Source of the DNA: Egicoccus halophilus | Lineage (GTDB): Bacteria > Actinomycetota > Nitriliruptoria > Nitriliruptorales > Nitriliruptoraceae | Assembly (NCBI RefSeq): GCF_004300825.1 | Contig: NZ_CP036250.1 | Span: forward strand, 868,001 to 932,000 | DNA length: 64,000 nucleotides | Direction: 5' to 3' | Part shown: one piece after another, positions 3,800-37,230 of the stretch | Layout of the letters: each line of letters opens with the position of its first letter | How positions within the stretch are numbered: position 1 is the first letter of the stretch | The notes under the pieces: generated by a model | Database searches by the model: none | What the model was told of the DNA's origin: nothing | Seen by the model: the letters and a program-made list of their open reading frames with translations, nothing else | Made by a program: the position numbers and the translations under genes

Positions 3800-4561
3800 G
3801 TGTCCGAGCCCGTCGCCGTCGAGCTCGTCGAGATCCCGGCGGGAACGCTGCGGGTGATCACGCTGTCGCGCCCGGCCGTGCGCAACGCGATGGACACGGC
3901 GTTGTTGGTGGCGCTGTCGGACGCGCTCGACGACGCCGACCGTGACGCGCGGCTGCGTGGCGTGCTGGTCACGGGGGCGGGCGGCGCGTTCTCGGCCGGC
4001 GCGGACCTGCGGGAGGAGCTCCCCGACGACGGGCGTCGGCGGATGGAGCTGTTCACCACGGTGTACGAGCAGCTGACGCTGTTGCGGGTCCCGACCGCGG
4101 CCGCCGTCGAGGGGTATGCGGTCGGTGGCGGCGTGGAGCTCGTGGGTGCCTGTGACCTGCGGGTGCTGGCGCGGGACGCGGTGCTGCGGTTCCCGGGCGC
4201 GATCCACGGTGTGCCGGTGGGAACCGCCCGCACGGTGGGGCAGGTGGGGTTGTCGGTGGCCAAGGACTGGGTGCTCTCGAGTCGGGACGTGCCCGCCGAG
4301 GAGGCGTTCGCGGCCGGGTTCGCGCAGCGATTGGTGCCGCCGGGCGGGACGTCGGACGCCGCCAGGGTGTGGCTGGACGAGGTCGCGCGACGGGACCCGG
4401 ACACGGTCGCGCTGCTCAAGCGCCTGTTCAACGACCACGGTGGGGTCCGCAACCGGGTGGCGTACGAGAACGACGCCCTGCGGGCCCACGCGGAGACGGG
4501 CGGGCTGGCGCCGGGGCTGGACCGTGACCTGCCTCGGACGGTTCGCCCCCGCCGAGTGTGA
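3800..4561 (+). CDS. Enoyl-CoA hydratase/isomerase (crotonase) family protein
   Basis: 253 aa. The oxyanion-hole blocks are present: AFSAGADLREE (about residues 62-72) and GYAVGGGVELVGACDLR (about 105-120). The first catalytic Glu of hydratases is kept (GGGVEL). The position of the second Glu appears to be Ala or Gly in RFPGAIHGVPVGT, so plain hydratase activity is doubtful and an isomerase or other crotonase reaction is possible. The GTG at 3800 follows GAGGAGTCGCC; longer frames run back through the opposite-strand neighbour and are not believed. Confidence 0.88.
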   Translation: MSEPVAVELVEIPAGTLRVITLSRPAVRNAMDTALLVALSDALDDADRDARLRGVLVTGAGGAFSAGADLREELPDDGRRRMELFTTVYEQLTLLRVPTAAAVEGYAVGGGVELVGACDLRVLARDAVLRFPGAIHGVPVGTARTVGQVGLSVAKDWVLSSRDVPAEEAFAAGFAQRLVPPGGTSDAARVWLDEVARRDPDTVALLKRLFNDHGGVRNRVAYENDALRAHAETGGLAPGLDRDLPRTVRPRRV

Positions 4562-26755: not shown

Positions 26756-27475
26756 TCACCGTCGCCCGGTCGCGCGTGACCACAGCAGCGTCGCTGCGGC
26801 CAGCGCCGCGAGTACGCCCGCGACGATCGCCTGAAGGGCGTGGAAGGGCTCGGGGACCTCCACGGTCGGCGCGACGACCTCGAGGTGGTCGGCACGCAGC
26901 GTGATGCCACCGCCGTCGTCGGGATCGGCGCGCAGCAGGACCCCTTCGAGCAGCACGATGTCACCACGGCGCCCGGGTCGCCCGACCCCGTCGATCTGCT
27001 CGTGCAAGCCGTCGGGCAACCACACCGACAGGCCGCTGCTGAAGCCGCGGGACTCGCGGTGCGCGCCCATCGGGCCGACCTCGAGCGCGTAGTCGTCGTC
27101 GTTGACCTGGACCCAGACGCCACTGCGGCGCCGAATGAGTTCGCCGACGGGCTCGCCGACATAGGTCACGCGCCGTCCGTCGAACGCGGCGGGACAGGCG
27201 TAGACGTGCGGGGAGGTGATGCGGCCGCCTGCGCCGATCGTGGCGCCGATCGTGTCGACGAGATCTTGGTCGGCACCACGTCGACAGACCGATGGTTCGG
27301 TCTCGAGCGCGACCGGCGGGAGGTCGGTCACGAGGAAGGGTGTGGTGTCGACCAGTGGTTTGGCGCGCAGCAGCAGCTCGGTCCCGGCGAGGACGGATAC
27401 CAACAGGGCGAGTGCGGCGACCAGGATCCAACGCGTCGGACGCCGACGATGACGGTTTGCGCGAACTGTGCTCAT
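26756..27475 (-). CDS. Membrane-anchored TrkH-associated protein A (unrecognised external domain)
   Basis: 239 aa. Two membrane helices, at about 16-36 (WILVAALALLVSVLAGTELL) and about 212-232, with a 170-residue domain between them that should lie outside. Conserved with the second copy at 34882: ACPAAFDGRRVTY, then WVQVNDDDYAL, VWLPD, RRGD and DGGG. Two Cys (SVCRRG and YACPAAF) match the other copy and may form a disulfide. The beta-rich G-rich pattern looks OB-like. The ATG overlaps the TrkH stop (ATGA). Function unknown; probably a TrkH accessory. Confidence 0.85.
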   Translation of the reverse strand: MSTVRANRHRRRPTRWILVAALALLVSVLAGTELLLRAKPLVDTTPFLVTDLPPVALETEPSVCRRGADQDLVDTIGATIGAGGRITSPHVYACPAAFDGRRVTYVGEPVGELIRRRSGVWVQVNDDDYALEVGPMGAHRESRGFSSGLSVWLPDGLHEQIDGVGRPGRRGDIVLLEGVLLRADPDDGGGITLRADHLEVVAPTVEVPEPFHALQAIVAGVLAALAAATLLWSRATGRR

Positions 27476-28986
27476 GTCGACGCCCGCCCGCGGGCGAGGG
27501 ACACGAGGTAACCGAGCATGGCGAAGACGGCCACGAACTCGAGCCGACCGAGCCACATCTGCACGAGGTAGACCGCCATCAGCCCGCGTGGCATGCCGGG
27601 ATCGGTGACCCCGATGGACAAGCCGATGTTGGAGGCGGCGGACACCGACTCGAACAGCGTCTGGGTGATGTCGTAGGAGCCGTAGGCCAGTCCGATCATG
27701 GCGCCGGCGAGATAGGTGACCACGAACAGCAGCAGTACGGACGTGGCGGCGCGGGCGGTCTGGTCGCGCAGGATCTGCCGCTTGCCGACGTGGTAGGTCG
27801 TGACGACCACGGCCGACTCCGGGTTGAGCAGCTTGCGGACGTCGTGCACCAGGGTCTTGGCGGCGATGCCCACCCGCAGGGCCTTGATCCCGCCGGCGGT
27901 GGAGGACGCCATGCCGCCGATCGCCATTGCCGCCACGATCGCGGCCGGCGCCAGCACGCCCCAGTCGGTGAGGTAGGTCTCGCCGGCGTTGACCTGCGCC
28001 CCGGCGCTGGACACCGAGGACAACAGGGTGAAGAAGCCCTTGCGGATGAGCGGTTCGAGCTCGTCGTACGCACCCGAGCGCACCAGGCCGAAGCAGACGA
28101 CCAGGAACAACAGGCCGGACGACAGGGCGAGCGTACGGGTCTCGAGGTGACGCAGCACCTGGCGCCAGTCCGCGTTCCACAGGGCGAAGTGCAGCCCGAA
28201 CGACAGCGAGCCGGCGAGCAGCAGCACCATGACCACCACCTCGACCGCGAACGAGTGGTAGTAGGCGATGGATGCCTGCATCGGCGCGAAGCCGCCGGTG
28301 TCGAAGGCGGCGAAGAACAGCAGCACGGCGTGGTAGACGGCGCGGCCCGGGGTGAAGCCGGCCACCAGCAGCGCCACGAACAACGCCGCGGTCCCGACCA
28401 CGAGGAACGTCGCCGCCACGCGGAAGATGAAGCGGGCCGTACGGATGAAATTGGGCAGGATGCGTTCGTCACGCGCCTCGGCCACGTACAGCGTGCCGAT
28501 GCGACCACCGCCGGCGGCGAACAACGACAGCACTACGATGATGATGCCCTGGCCACCGGCGAAGTGGAGCAGATGCCGGTAGAAGTCCATCGACAGGGTG
28601 GTGTGGTCGAGGTCGCTGACGACCGACAACCCGGTCGTCGTGAGCGCCGACATGCCCTCGAAGACCGCGGACAGCCAGTCCTCATAGTGACCCGAGAGGT
28701 GGAACGGCACGGCGGCGAAGATGGCGCCGACCAGCCAGGCCAGCGCCACGGTCACCATGCCGTGGGCCCACGTCAGCTGCTGACGCGTCGCGAGTTTGGC
28801 CTCGCTGGCACCCCCGACGATGCCGCACAGCGACGCGCCGATCACGAACGCCGACAGCGTGTTCCACTCCGCCAGCGCGGCCGCGACCACGGCGGCGCCG
28901 GCCATGACGAGGCCCAACCCCAGCAGCACCTTGCCGAGGTAGTACCCGATCAACCGCAGGTCGTCGGCGCCCGGGCGCAGCAGCAC
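27472..28986 (-). CDS. TrkH-family potassium uptake membrane subunit, copy A
   Basis: 504 aa with four M-P-M repeats. Filter-type Gly segments: ALTTTGLSVV (about 114), FDTGGFAPM, SSVSSAGAQVN and SAASNIGLSIG. The TrkH core GGQGIIIVVLSLF and GGMASSTAGGIKALR are present. It carries K+ across the membrane and is gated by RCK subunits, here the two TrkA genes just upstream in the same operon. GTG start at 28986, 3 bp after the 45-aa protein; the stop overlaps the next gene. Confidence 0.95.
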   Translation of the reverse strand: MLLRPGADDLRLIGYYLGKVLLGLGLVMAGAAVVAAALAEWNTLSAFVIGASLCGIVGGASEAKLATRQQLTWAHGMVTVALAWLVGAIFAAVPFHLSGHYEDWLSAVFEGMSALTTTGLSVVSDLDHTTLSMDFYRHLLHFAGGQGIIIVVLSLFAAGGGRIGTLYVAEARDERILPNFIRTARFIFRVAATFLVVGTAALFVALLVAGFTPGRAVYHAVLLFFAAFDTGGFAPMQASIAYYHSFAVEVVVMVLLLAGSLSFGLHFALWNADWRQVLRHLETRTLALSSGLLFLVVCFGLVRSGAYDELEPLIRKGFFTLLSSVSSAGAQVNAGETYLTDWGVLAPAAIVAAMAIGGMASSTAGGIKALRVGIAAKTLVHDVRKLLNPESAVVVTTYHVGKRQILRDQTARAATSVLLLFVVTYLAGAMIGLAYGSYDITQTLFESVSAASNIGLSIGVTDPGMPRGLMAVYLVQMWLGRLEFVAVFAMLGYLVSLARGRAST

Positions 28987-28989
28987 GGC

Positions 28990-29127
28990 TCAGCCCGCCA
29001 GCAACAGGGTGAGGGCGGCGACGCCGGTGGCGGCGGCGATGGCGAGCACGAACAACGCCACGAGCAGCCCGATGCCCCGGGCCGCGGCCCGCGGCCCGGT
29101 CCCACCACGGTCGTCGCGGACCCTCAC
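28990..29127 (-). CDS. 45-aa one-helix membrane protein of TrkH cassette A
   Basis: GTG start at 29127 overlaps the stop of the TrkA gene (GTGA) and the TGA stop is 3 bp before TrkH. The first 18 residues are basic (MRVRDDRGGTGPRAAARG); residues 19-45 form one hydrophobic helix (GIGLLVALFVLAIAAATGVA and beyond). A protein of exactly the same length with the same layout precedes the second TrkH (37093-37230). That supports a real gene, perhaps a small subunit comparable in concept to KdpF of the Kdp pump. Confidence 0.75.
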   Translation of the reverse strand: MRVRDDRGGTGPRAAARGIGLLVALFVLAIAAATGVAALTLLLAG

Positions 29128-29786
29128 CGCCGACCCAGCAGCGAGCTCGTGATCCGGTGCTCGAGGTCGGGGCTGGTCAGCAGCACGACCTCGTCACCGG
29201 GCAGCAGTTGGGCGCCACCACGCGGGATGACGGTCTCGTCGCCCCGGAAGATGGCGACCAGCACGGCCTCGTTGGGCAGGTCGAGCTTCTCGATCGCCCG
29301 CGGCCTGGGCGCGCCGGGGCCGCTCGGGATGCGCAGTTCGACCAGGCTGACCCGGCCGCCCTTGAGGCTGGTCAGGTGGATCAGCTCGCCGATGGAGAAC
29401 TCGTTCTCGAGCAGCTCCGAGATCAGTCGGGTCGAGGACACCGGCTCGATGCCGAGACGGTCGAAGATCTCGACGTTCTTGGGCGTGTTGACCCGGCTGA
29501 TGGCCCGCTTCACGCCGAACTCGATCTTCGCGAGCTGGCAGGACACGAGGTTGTCGTCGTCCTCGTGGGTGGTGGCGACGAAGACGTCGGCGCGGTCGGC
29601 ATGGGCCTGCTCGAGGTAGCGCACGTCGCACGCGTCACCCTCGATGACGAGCACGTCGGTCTCGGCCACCAGCTGTTCGCAGCGCGAGCCGATGCGCTCC
29701 ACCACGGTCACCTCATGGCCCTTCTCGACCATGTCCCTGGCGATGTAGCGGCCGATCTTGCCACCGCCGGCGATCACGACGTACAT
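29124..29786 (-). CDS. trkA: TrkA-type RCK potassium channel regulator, copy 1
   Basis: 220 aa. RCK_N Rossmann fold with VVIAGGGKIGRYIARDM (GxGxxG), acidic end of strand 2 (VVER), and GDACDVRYLEQA; then RCK_C (VELRIPSGPG, LPGDEVVLLTS). Binds NAD(H)/ATP and gates TrkH from the cytoplasmic side. ATG at 29786, 4 bp after the other RCK gene; the stop overlaps the 45-aa gene. Confidence 0.94.
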   Translation of the reverse strand: MYVVIAGGGKIGRYIARDMVEKGHEVTVVERIGSRCEQLVAETDVLVIEGDACDVRYLEQAHADRADVFVATTHEDDDNLVSCQLAKIEFGVKRAISRVNTPKNVEIFDRLGIEPVSSTRLISELLENEFSIGELIHLTSLKGGRVSLVELRIPSGPGAPRPRAIEKLDLPNEAVLVAIFRGDETVIPRGGAQLLPGDEVVLLTSPDLEHRITSSLLGRR

Positions 29787-29790
29787 GTCC

Positions 29791-30477
29791 TCACCTCCGG
29801 TCCGCGTAGCTGCGTTCGCGGTCGAACGGATCGCGCACGAGCTCGGCGATGCGTCGGTGCGCGGCCGGCTTCATCGCGGCGGTGACCACGTCGTCGCGCT
29901 CGAGGCGGTCGCTGCGGTCGGGAATGAACACCCGGGTGCCCCGCCGGACCGCGGCCACCCGCAGCTGACCGTCGACCTCGAACTCCTCGACGGTCATGCC
30001 GTGACCCGGGGTGTCCATCTCGAGTTCGACGACCGAGACGTCGGTGTCGGAGAAGGCCACGTGCAACGGATAGCTCTCGTCGCGGAACTCGTTGAGGAAC
30101 AGCTTCGCGATCAGGCCGGTACCCGAGACGTAACGCACGCCGAGCTTGCGGTAGACGTCCTCGCGTTCGGGGTTGAACAGCCGGGCGATCGTGCGGGGGA
30201 CGTCGTAGAGGTGGGTGGCGATCTCGACCGCCATCAGGTTGGCGTTGTCGAACCGCGTCACGGCGATCAGTCCGTCGGCGCGCTGGACCCCGGCCTGCTC
30301 GAGCACGTCGCGGTCGGTGCAGTCGCCCACCACGGTCTCGCCGTTGAACGCCGAACCCAGGCGGTCGAACGCCAGGGGGTCGACGTCACACACGACGACG
30401 TCGGTGTCGGCGTCCTCGGACAGACGGTCGGCGATCTCCGCGCCCAGCCGCCCGCACCCGCCGATGATGATGTGCAC
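29791..30477 (-). CDS. trkA: TrkA-type RCK potassium channel regulator, copy 2
   Basis: 228 aa from the GTG at 30477, with GAGGAAGTTC before it. RCK_N with HIIIGGCGRLGAEIADRL, VVCDVDP and GDCTDRDVLEQAG; RCK_C with VVELEMDTPGHG and LERDDVVTAAM. First gene of the five-gene K+ operon. Two adjacent single RCK proteins may form a hetero-octameric ring, in place of the fused double-RCK TrkA of enterobacteria. Divergent from ispH. Confidence 0.94.
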   Translation of the reverse strand: MHIIIGGCGRLGAEIADRLSEDADTDVVVCDVDPLAFDRLGSAFNGETVVGDCTDRDVLEQAGVQRADGLIAVTRFDNANLMAVEIATHLYDVPRTIARLFNPEREDVYRKLGVRYVSGTGLIAKLFLNEFRDESYPLHVAFSDTDVSVVELEMDTPGHGMTVEEFEVDGQLRVAAVRRGTRVFIPDRSDRLERDDVVTAAMKPAAHRRIAELVRDPFDRERSYADRR

Positions 30478-30500
30478 GGCACGAACTTCCTCACGACACG

Positions 30501-34881: not shown

Positions 34882-35577
34882 TCAGGGCCCCTGACGCCGG
34901 CGCAGCAGCCAGATCGCCGCGGCTGCAGCGATCGCGACGCCGGCCAGCACGGCCTGGCCGGGATCGACCGCCAGCTCGACGTCGGTCGCCGGCGCCAGCA
35001 CCTCGAGGCGGTCGGCACGCACGCTCAACCCGCCACCGTCGGCCGGGTCCTGGCGGTGCACGACGCCGGTGACCAGGACGACGTCGCCGCGGCGGTCCGC
35101 TCGTCCCGCGACCAGGCCGTCGGGCAGGTCGTCGGGCAACCAGACGGCCAGACCCTGGTTGCCGCCGCGACGCTCGGTGTGGCTGCCGAGCGGCCCGGTG
35201 ACGAGCGCGTAGTCGTCGTCGTTGACCTGCACCCAGGCGCCGCCGTCGCGACGCAGCAGATCGCCGACCAGTTCGCCGGCGTAGGTCACCCGGCGGCCGT
35301 CGAAGGCCGCGGGACAGGCCGTCACCATCGCCGAGGTGACCCGCCCGTCGGGGTCGAAGCGTTCGGCGAGTTGCTCGGCGGGCAGGGTGTCGAGTTGCTC
35401 GCGTTCGCAGCGCACGACCTCGCCGGCCTCGGCCGGCAGGCCGGCGCGCAGGTCGAGGGCGGGGTCGGGCGTGCGCGCGACCGTGGTGTCGAGCAGTTGC
35501 AGTCCGACGACGAGGACGATCAGGAAGACGACCGGGGCGATCAGCAGTCGGCCGGCGGGGCCGCGTCCGCGCACCAT
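34882..35577 (-). CDS. Membrane-anchored TrkH-associated protein B (unrecognised external domain)
   Basis: 231 aa, paralogue of the protein at 26756. Helix 1 at about 11-29 (LIAPVVFLIVLVVGLQLL), external domain, helix 2 near the C-terminus (AVLAGVAIAAAAAIWLL) ending RRRQGP. Shared blocks: ACPAAFDGRRVTY, WVQVNDDDYAL, VWLPD and DGGG; the two Cys are kept (VVRCERE, TACPAAF). The linkers differ widely while the core is nearly the same, so the core is under selection. ATG overlaps the TrkH-B stop by one base (TGATG). Confidence 0.85.
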   Translation of the reverse strand: MVRGRGPAGRLLIAPVVFLIVLVVGLQLLDTTVARTPDPALDLRAGLPAEAGEVVRCEREQLDTLPAEQLAERFDPDGRVTSAMVTACPAAFDGRRVTYAGELVGDLLRRDGGAWVQVNDDDYALVTGPLGSHTERRGGNQGLAVWLPDDLPDGLVAGRADRRGDVVLVTGVVHRQDPADGGGLSVRADRLEVLAPATDVELAVDPGQAVLAGVAIAAAAAIWLLRRRQGP

Positions 35578-37085
35578 CAGCGTCGCCTCCCGACCAGGGA
35601 GACGCCGTAGCCGACCAGCGCGAACGCCGCCATGAACTCCAGCCGGCCGAGCCACATCTGCAACAGGTAGGTGACCTGGAGACCGCGCGGCATGTCGGGT
35701 CCCGTGATGCCGACCGACAGCCCGACGTTGGCCGCCGCCGAGACCGACTCGAAGATGGTCTCGGTGACCTCCCACTGCCCGTAGAGCAGACCGACCAGCG
35801 CCCCGGCGAGATAGGTCAGCACGTACAGCAGCAGCACCGTGGTGGCCGCGATCAGCGCCGGCGGCTGCAGGATGCGCCGCTTGCCCGAGTGGTAGGTCGC
35901 CACGGTCACGGCCGACTCGGGGCGCAGCAGGCGCTCGACCTCTCGCAGCAGGCCCTTGACCGTCAGCCCGATGCGCAGGGCCTTGATGCCGCCGGCCGTC
36001 GATCCGGCCATGCCACCGAGGGCCATCACGGCGACCACGGCTGCCGGGGCGAGCACGCCCCAGTCGGTGACGTACAGGGTGCCGGCGTTGACGGCGAAGC
36101 CCGTCCCGGAGTGCGCCGAGAGCATGGTGAAGAAGCCCTTGCGGAACAGCCCCGCGGTCCCGGTGTAGGTCCCCGCCCTCGCCAGCCCGTACAGGGCCAG
36201 GACGCTGAAGGCGGCCAGGGTGAGCGTGATCGTGCGCACCTCGAGGTTGCGCAGCAACTCCCGGTGGCGCCCGTTCCACAACGCGTAGTGCAGGGCGAAC
36301 GACATGGTGCCGGCCACCATCAGCACCATGACGACCGACTCGACCCCGAGCGAGTGGTAGTAGGCGATCGAGCTCGAGTACGGCGAGAACCCCCCGGTGT
36401 CGAAGGCGGCGAAGAAGATGTTGACCGCGTGCCACAGGCCACGCCACCCGCCGAGGCCGGCCGCGCTCATCGCCGCGAACAACGCCAGCGTGCCGGCCAG
36501 CAGGTAGGCACCGGCGATGAGGTAGATGAAGCGGGCCGTGCGCACGACGCTGGGAACGATGCGCTCGTCGCGGCCCTCGGCGACGTAGAGCGTGCCGATC
36601 TGCGCGCCACCGGCGGTGAACAGCGACAGCGCCACGATCACGATGCCCTGCCCGCCGGCGAAGTGCGTCAGGTGCCGGTAGAAGTTCATCGAGTACGACA
36701 GGTGGTCGACGTCCTGCACCACCGACAACCCGGAGGTGGTCAGGCCCGACATCGCCTCGAACCAGGCGTCGAGGAAGTCACCGAAGTGTCCCGAGAGGAA
36801 CAGCGGCACGGCGGCCAGCAGGGATCCGACCAGCCAGGCCAGGGCGACCACGACCGTGCCGTGGGCCCAGGTCAGTGAAGCGCGGGTCTGCAGCCGCCAC
36901 TCGGCCATCTGCCACACGACCGCGGCGATGCCCACTCCCGCCAGCAGGGCGGTGGCCGAGTCCCACTCCCCGAGCGGGACGGCGACCAGCAACGGCAGCG
37001 CCATCATCAACGCCAGCGCCATGGCGATCTTGCCGAGGTAGAAGCCGATGATGCGCAGGTCACGGCCGTCGGGGCGCAGGGACAC
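35577..37085 (-). CDS. TrkH-family potassium uptake membrane subunit, copy B
   Basis: 502 aa, closely similar to copy A along its length (RPDGRDLRIIGFYLGKIAMA against RPGADDLRLIGYYLGKVLLG). Filter segments are LTTSGLSVV, FDTGGFSPY, AHSGTGFAVN and SAAANVGLSVG. No TrkA gene is adjacent, so it may borrow the RCK pair at 29124-30477 or work without it. GTG start at 37085, 7 bp after the 45-aa gene. Confidence 0.95.
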   Translation of the reverse strand: MSLRPDGRDLRIIGFYLGKIAMALALMMALPLLVAVPLGEWDSATALLAGVGIAAVVWQMAEWRLQTRASLTWAHGTVVVALAWLVGSLLAAVPLFLSGHFGDFLDAWFEAMSGLTTSGLSVVQDVDHLSYSMNFYRHLTHFAGGQGIVIVALSLFTAGGAQIGTLYVAEGRDERIVPSVVRTARFIYLIAGAYLLAGTLALFAAMSAAGLGGWRGLWHAVNIFFAAFDTGGFSPYSSSIAYYHSLGVESVVMVLMVAGTMSFALHYALWNGRHRELLRNLEVRTITLTLAAFSVLALYGLARAGTYTGTAGLFRKGFFTMLSAHSGTGFAVNAGTLYVTDWGVLAPAAVVAVMALGGMAGSTAGGIKALRIGLTVKGLLREVERLLRPESAVTVATYHSGKRRILQPPALIAATTVLLLYVLTYLAGALVGLLYGQWEVTETIFESVSAAANVGLSVGITGPDMPRGLQVTYLLQMWLGRLEFMAAFALVGYGVSLVGRRR

Positions 37086-37092
37086 GGGTGCT

Positions 37093-37230
37093 TCAGCGCA
37101 GCCCGGCCGCGAGCGCGGCCACGCCCAACGCCACGAGGCCGAGCACCGCGGTGGCGGCGACGACCAACGCGATGCCGGTCACCGCGCCCCGCCAACCGGC
37201 GGACGCACTACGGGAGGTGGCGGGATGCAC
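37093..37230 (-). CDS. 45-aa one-helix membrane protein of TrkH cassette B
   Basis: GTG at 37230 to TGA at 37093. Same length and place as the protein at 28990: polar basic start (MHPATSRSASAGWRG), then one hydrophobic helix (GIALVVAATAVLGLVALGVA and on). GI-L-VA and GVAAL are shared with copy A. Upstream Shine-Dalgarno is weak. Conservation of the position next to both TrkH genes is the main support. Confidence 0.7.
   Translation of the reverse strand: MHPATSRSASAGWRGAVTGIALVVAATAVLGLVALGVAALAAGLR

Follow-up and report, generated by a model that had tools for sequence, protein, structure and literature searches.

A 45-aa membrane microprotein encoded directly in front of trkH in Egicoccus halophilus is, as judged from comparison with related loci, a conserved small protein under purifying selection and not a chance frame, and in the genomes searched it is linked near-exclusively to trkH. 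It is likely to be a dedicated single-span accessory subunit of one TrkH clade that would stabilize or tune the channel in a KdpF-like manner.

A small gene at the trkA-trkH junction

The window, i.e., the whole 64,000-nucleotide stretch of DNA that was analysed, contains two trkH genes, each preceded by a microprotein gene; these are the only TrkH-family matches in this genome.

29127..28990, minus strand: microprotein copy A, 45 aa, GTG start, TGA stop, predicted single-span membrane peptide directly 5' of TrkH copy A
29127..29124, minus strand: GTGA overlap of the copy A start (GTG at 29127-29125) with the TrkA stop
28986..27472, minus strand: TrkH copy A, 504 aa (Pfam TrkH, E=8.3e-36)
29786..29124, minus strand: TrkA, 220 aa, directly upstream of the copy A peptide (Pfam TrkA_N and TrkA_C)
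30480..29791, minus strand: second TrkA, 229 aa, upstream of the first TrkA (Pfam TrkA_N and TrkA_C)
37230..37093, minus strand: microprotein copy B, 45 aa, paralogue of the copy A peptide, before TrkH copy B
37085..35577, minus strand: TrkH copy B, 502 aa (Pfam TrkH, E=6.7e-42)

A sequence-only reading had proposed an unannotated 45-aa peptide at 28990-29127, starting at a GTG that overlaps the TrkA stop, ending 3 bp before TrkH, basic at its head, with a single helix, and equal in length to the peptide before TrkH copy B. The position, overlap, spacing, length, basic head and predicted helix are borne out. The coding strand is minus (the plus-strand reading of the same positions is a different, hydrophilic frame), the peptide is MRVRDDRGGTGPRAAARGIGLLVALFVLAIAAATGVAALTLLLAG (45 aa), the TGA ends at 28990 and is followed by gcc and then by the TrkH GTG at 28986, and hydropathy agrees with an AlphaFold model of copy A that consists of one helix (residues 12-44, mean pLDDT 88.6). 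The copy B peptide ends 7 nt 5' of TrkH-B, which has no adjoining trkA; the gene ahead of this peptide is presumably upp. In most of the family relatives, the peptide start overlaps the TrkA stop by 1-4 nt. With the GTGA of copy A, such overlapping starts make it likely that translation of copy A is coupled to the upstream trkA. The copy A TGA is in frame with TrkH (28992..28986, minus strand), so that stop-codon read-through would yield a fusion; this candidate was rejected since the frame relation is lost in most relatives. The nearest named relatives are metagenome genomes of Nitriliruptoraceae and Euzebyaceae.

For the comparative analysis, trkH loci were collected from relatives, and position and hydropathy were the sole criteria for picking ORFs before each trkH. 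Nearly every trkA-trkH gap of the class is occupied by an ORF with a basic head and a single helix, mostly of 43-55 aa, and many further families of the phylum have this kind of ORF 5' of trkH. A chance ORF in GC-rich DNA was considered as an alternative, since the genome has a high GC content and the window abounds in long spurious ORFs; however, 52 of the 53 class junctions are spanned by a hydrophobic ORF of full length, whereas order-1 Markov resampling of this junction DNA produces one with a mean probability of about 0.0002, and genomes whose proteins are of low-GC style (e.g., L141 and L144) carry the peptide as well. Stops or frameshifts in close relatives, named beforehand as the refutation of the peptide, were looked for in 25 family relatives and none was found: the frame contains 0 internal stops, and the other two same-strand frames contain stops in 14/25 and 5/25 of these relatives. 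The comparative data thus already refute the chance reading, to which we assign a practically negligible probability. The dN/dS check proposed for this frame drew on 27 close pairs belonging to several classes. The pooled dN/dS is 0.36, with 322, 236 and 520 differences at codon positions 1, 2 and 3, respectively, but the two nearest comparisons of copy A itself yield 0.52 and 1.03, so that the case is carried by the family and not by copy A taken singly.

The peptide sequence is loosely conserved, including within the window's own genus. Of the 107 aligned copies, 105 have retained a single glycine at the helix's cytosolic end, and 40 have a glutamate four residues further on; the cytosolic head differs between copies in both sequence and length, the conserved glycine lying at the membrane entry. 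Lysine and arginine average 4.9 in the head versus 0.5 beyond this glycine, which by the positive-inside rule points to a cytosolic N-terminus; we infer a single-span, N-in/C-out topology. A one-sided conserved face of the helix was not significant overall (p=0.25 when the glycine is left out, 0.06 in the non-class set). With a model built from class copies, the junction peptides of other classes are the top four of 5106 ORFs; reciprocally, with a model of the other classes, the copy B peptide ranks first of the 868 window ORFs (E=0.019; copy A was unreported). Given these reciprocal rankings, the class and other-class peptides appear to form one family, the statistical support between classes being modest.

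Linkage to trkH and distribution among TrkH proteins

In a six-frame search of the genome with the class model, there are only two significant places, copy A (E=3.6e-8) and copy B (E=6.9e-7), both abutting trkH; the next match has E=0.022. Across 66 class genomes, the strong matches lie at trkH; five class genomes that were left out of the model also carry the peptide at trkH, and those without a peptide-type trkH gave weak matches or none, with no convincing copy. A second model, run against 296 genomes of the phylum, produced 38 matches, spread over 37 genomes; every one adjoins trkH, and in two cases the contig stops within that gene. Most of the matched copies were themselves part of the model or near it, those in G215, G192 and G245 being exceptions. 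One locus (L110, in the region of 2304-2432 and 4283-4411) holds a tandem pair of trkH genes, and a separate peptide directly precedes each of them.

In a FastTree phylogeny of 140 TrkH proteins, all 103 carriers fall within one clade of 124 (support 99), and presence or absence of the peptide requires at least eight changes of state on this tree. Among the clade members with an adjacent trkA, the peptide is found at 76 of 77, and among those without one, at 25 of 45; two carriers could not be scored for adjacent trkA. Outside the clade, the peptide is present at none of the 16 TrkH, 10 of which have an adjacent trkA. The 25 carriers without trkA, together with the 10 trkA-adjacent non-carriers of the outgroup, indicate that the peptide goes with TrkH rather than with TrkA.

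The peptide does not appear to be universally required, given that it is missing beside 21 of the 124 clade trkH genes, among them entire lineages (L137-L140 and L146). In the latter, a clade TrkH lineage is adjoined by neither trkA nor the peptide. Several other peptide-less members are second trkH genes in operons where a peptide is already encoded (L046, L052, L063, L064 and L066), in which case one peptide could serve both channels. No copies were seen downstream of trkH in the peptide-less members. A moved peptide gene was sought in G063 (L131), where trkA abuts trkH; the ORF after trkH encodes a different, 219-aa protein and no peptide was found. Hydrophobic candidates 5' of peptide-less and outgroup trkH genes are mostly tails of upstream genes with poor scores, the best, at L069, reaching 10.6 bits. 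Beyond the phylum, five plasmid records were sampled: trkA overlaps trkH in those from cyanobacteria and fusobacteria, and those from haloarchaea leave too few bases between the genes, so that the trk genes checked in these three groups have either no room or no ORF for a peptide.

The strongest residue difference between TrkH of carriers and non-carriers is at Glu174 of TrkH-A (window position about 28465), which we take to lie in the D1-D2 loop. This position is acidic in 99 of the 101 scored peptide-bearing TrkH versus 15 of the 21 peptide-less clade TrkH; the difference is driven mainly by one lineage and is therefore only a hint of a contact site.

Predicted role and alternative readings

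Under the proposed mechanism, the peptide would be translated by coupling between trkA and trkH, would insert into the membrane as one helix and, as the genomic linkage suggests, would pack against TrkH. There it could stabilize the TrkH assembly or tune gating, as KdpF serves Kdp, the choice between stabilization and gating being conjectural. We also lean, with less assurance, toward the broader view that this large actinobacterial clade of Trk channels is a three-part system of TrkH, TrkA and an undescribed one-helix subunit, acquired a single time close to the clade's base and needed for TrkH assembly or gating.

Several other readings of the conserved gene were considered. The peptide might be jobless, its translation serving only to deliver ribosomes to the trkH start by coupling, as the overlapping starts, the short distances to trkH and the loose conservation in the window's own genus would allow. 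A mere leader, however, needs neither the conserved glycine (105/107), nor the glutamate four residues on (40 copies), nor a membrane helix, and the pooled dN/dS of 0.36 also argues against it. In addition, the peptides of L106, L116, L150 and L153 end about 14-80 nt before trkH, where coupling would be loose, and the outgroup trkA-trkH pairs couple directly by overlap without any peptide; a leader role is thus held to be unlikely. The location between trkA and trkH, and the presence at nearly all clade TrkH with an adjacent trkA (76/77), would also suit a peptide that acts on TrkA instead of TrkH, e.g., by anchoring the TrkA ring to the membrane or serving as its receptor. This appears quite improbable: 25 clade TrkH without adjacent trkA, copy B among them, carry the peptide, 10 trkA-adjacent TrkH outside the clade do not, and what is conserved is the glycine at the membrane entry, the cytosolic head being variable in both its sequence and its length. 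The interaction with TrkH is deduced from linkage, and single-span hydrophobic peptides have many roles, so that a free-standing small membrane protein (a regulator, stress peptide or toxin-like protein) could merely ride in the trk operon. We give this reading very little credence, considering that convincing matches in whole-genome searches occur only at trkH and that the linkage persisted through several duplications and separations from trkA.

The preferred reading, an accessory subunit of TrkH, accords with the earlier suggestion of a Trk counterpart of KdpF. A conserved, basic-headed membrane microprotein of one helix that goes with TrkH makes this the best working idea; kinship with KdpF at the sequence level did not stand, as none of the 38 class and 6 other-class members compared with Pfam-A matches the KdpF family (PF09604). 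Both KdpF and the microprotein have a single transmembrane helix, and kdpF lies directly 5' of the gene for a channel-like subunit, as the microprotein gene does before trkH. The E. coli KdpF is about 29 aa long; unlike KdpF, the microprotein has a basic cytosolic head and a length of about 43-55 aa. KdpF is part of the KdpFABC pump and goes with kdpA, whereas the microprotein adjoins trkH, the gene of a channel-type transporter, and KdpA was not found in this genome. TrkH and KdpA belong to one superfamily, KdpA being a distant relative of TrkH (PMC6987127), and KdpF is said to stabilize its complex (PMC8385062). If the proposed role is correct, helper helices of the KdpF kind have arisen in two branches of the superfamily, and the two apparently share no sequence ancestry.

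The TrkH-TrkA and KtrB-KtrA complexes, which by Pfam comprise the same channel and regulator families as the window genes, consist of a membrane protein and a cytosolic partner, and no small membrane subunit was found in the account of these complexes (PMC6987127). Trk/Ktr systems are described as a channel with a cytosolic regulator; a conserved small subunit in this large branch would change the co-expression needs for functional and structural study of its channels. Other small single-span proteins are known to bind larger membrane complexes with partners different from TrkH: AcrZ binds AcrB (PMC7267776), and CydX tolerates every single alanine change tested and works despite wide sequence plasticity (PMC6005532). 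Such tolerance leads one to expect loose sequence constraint for helices of this kind and fits the loose conservation of the microprotein. There is no match to the microprotein in Pfam or NCBIfam, scans that are also the sole comparison with AcrZ and CydX; among solved structures (PDB), no relatives were detected, the best match (E=0.44) being an unrelated soluble enzyme, and the freely accessible literature yielded no paper describing a small subunit of Trk. Within these four sources, the microprotein thus appears to be undescribed, and by sequence and operon it is no KdpF. The channels of the clade probably have a small extra subunit of which no description was found, which adds to the small proteins a widespread family absent from Pfam and NCBIfam.

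A further gene at the trkH loci

Each trkH of the window is followed by a gene with overlapping codons, encoding a protein of 239 aa (27475..26756, minus strand) after copy A or 231 aa (35577..34882, minus strand) after copy B. Neither protein has a Pfam match, nor the copy A one an NCBIfam match. The two share 48% identity, and in both a soluble middle part is flanked by one hydrophobic stretch at either end. Similar frames occur at many trkH loci of the clade, suggesting that the trkH operon may hold this gene as another undescribed member.
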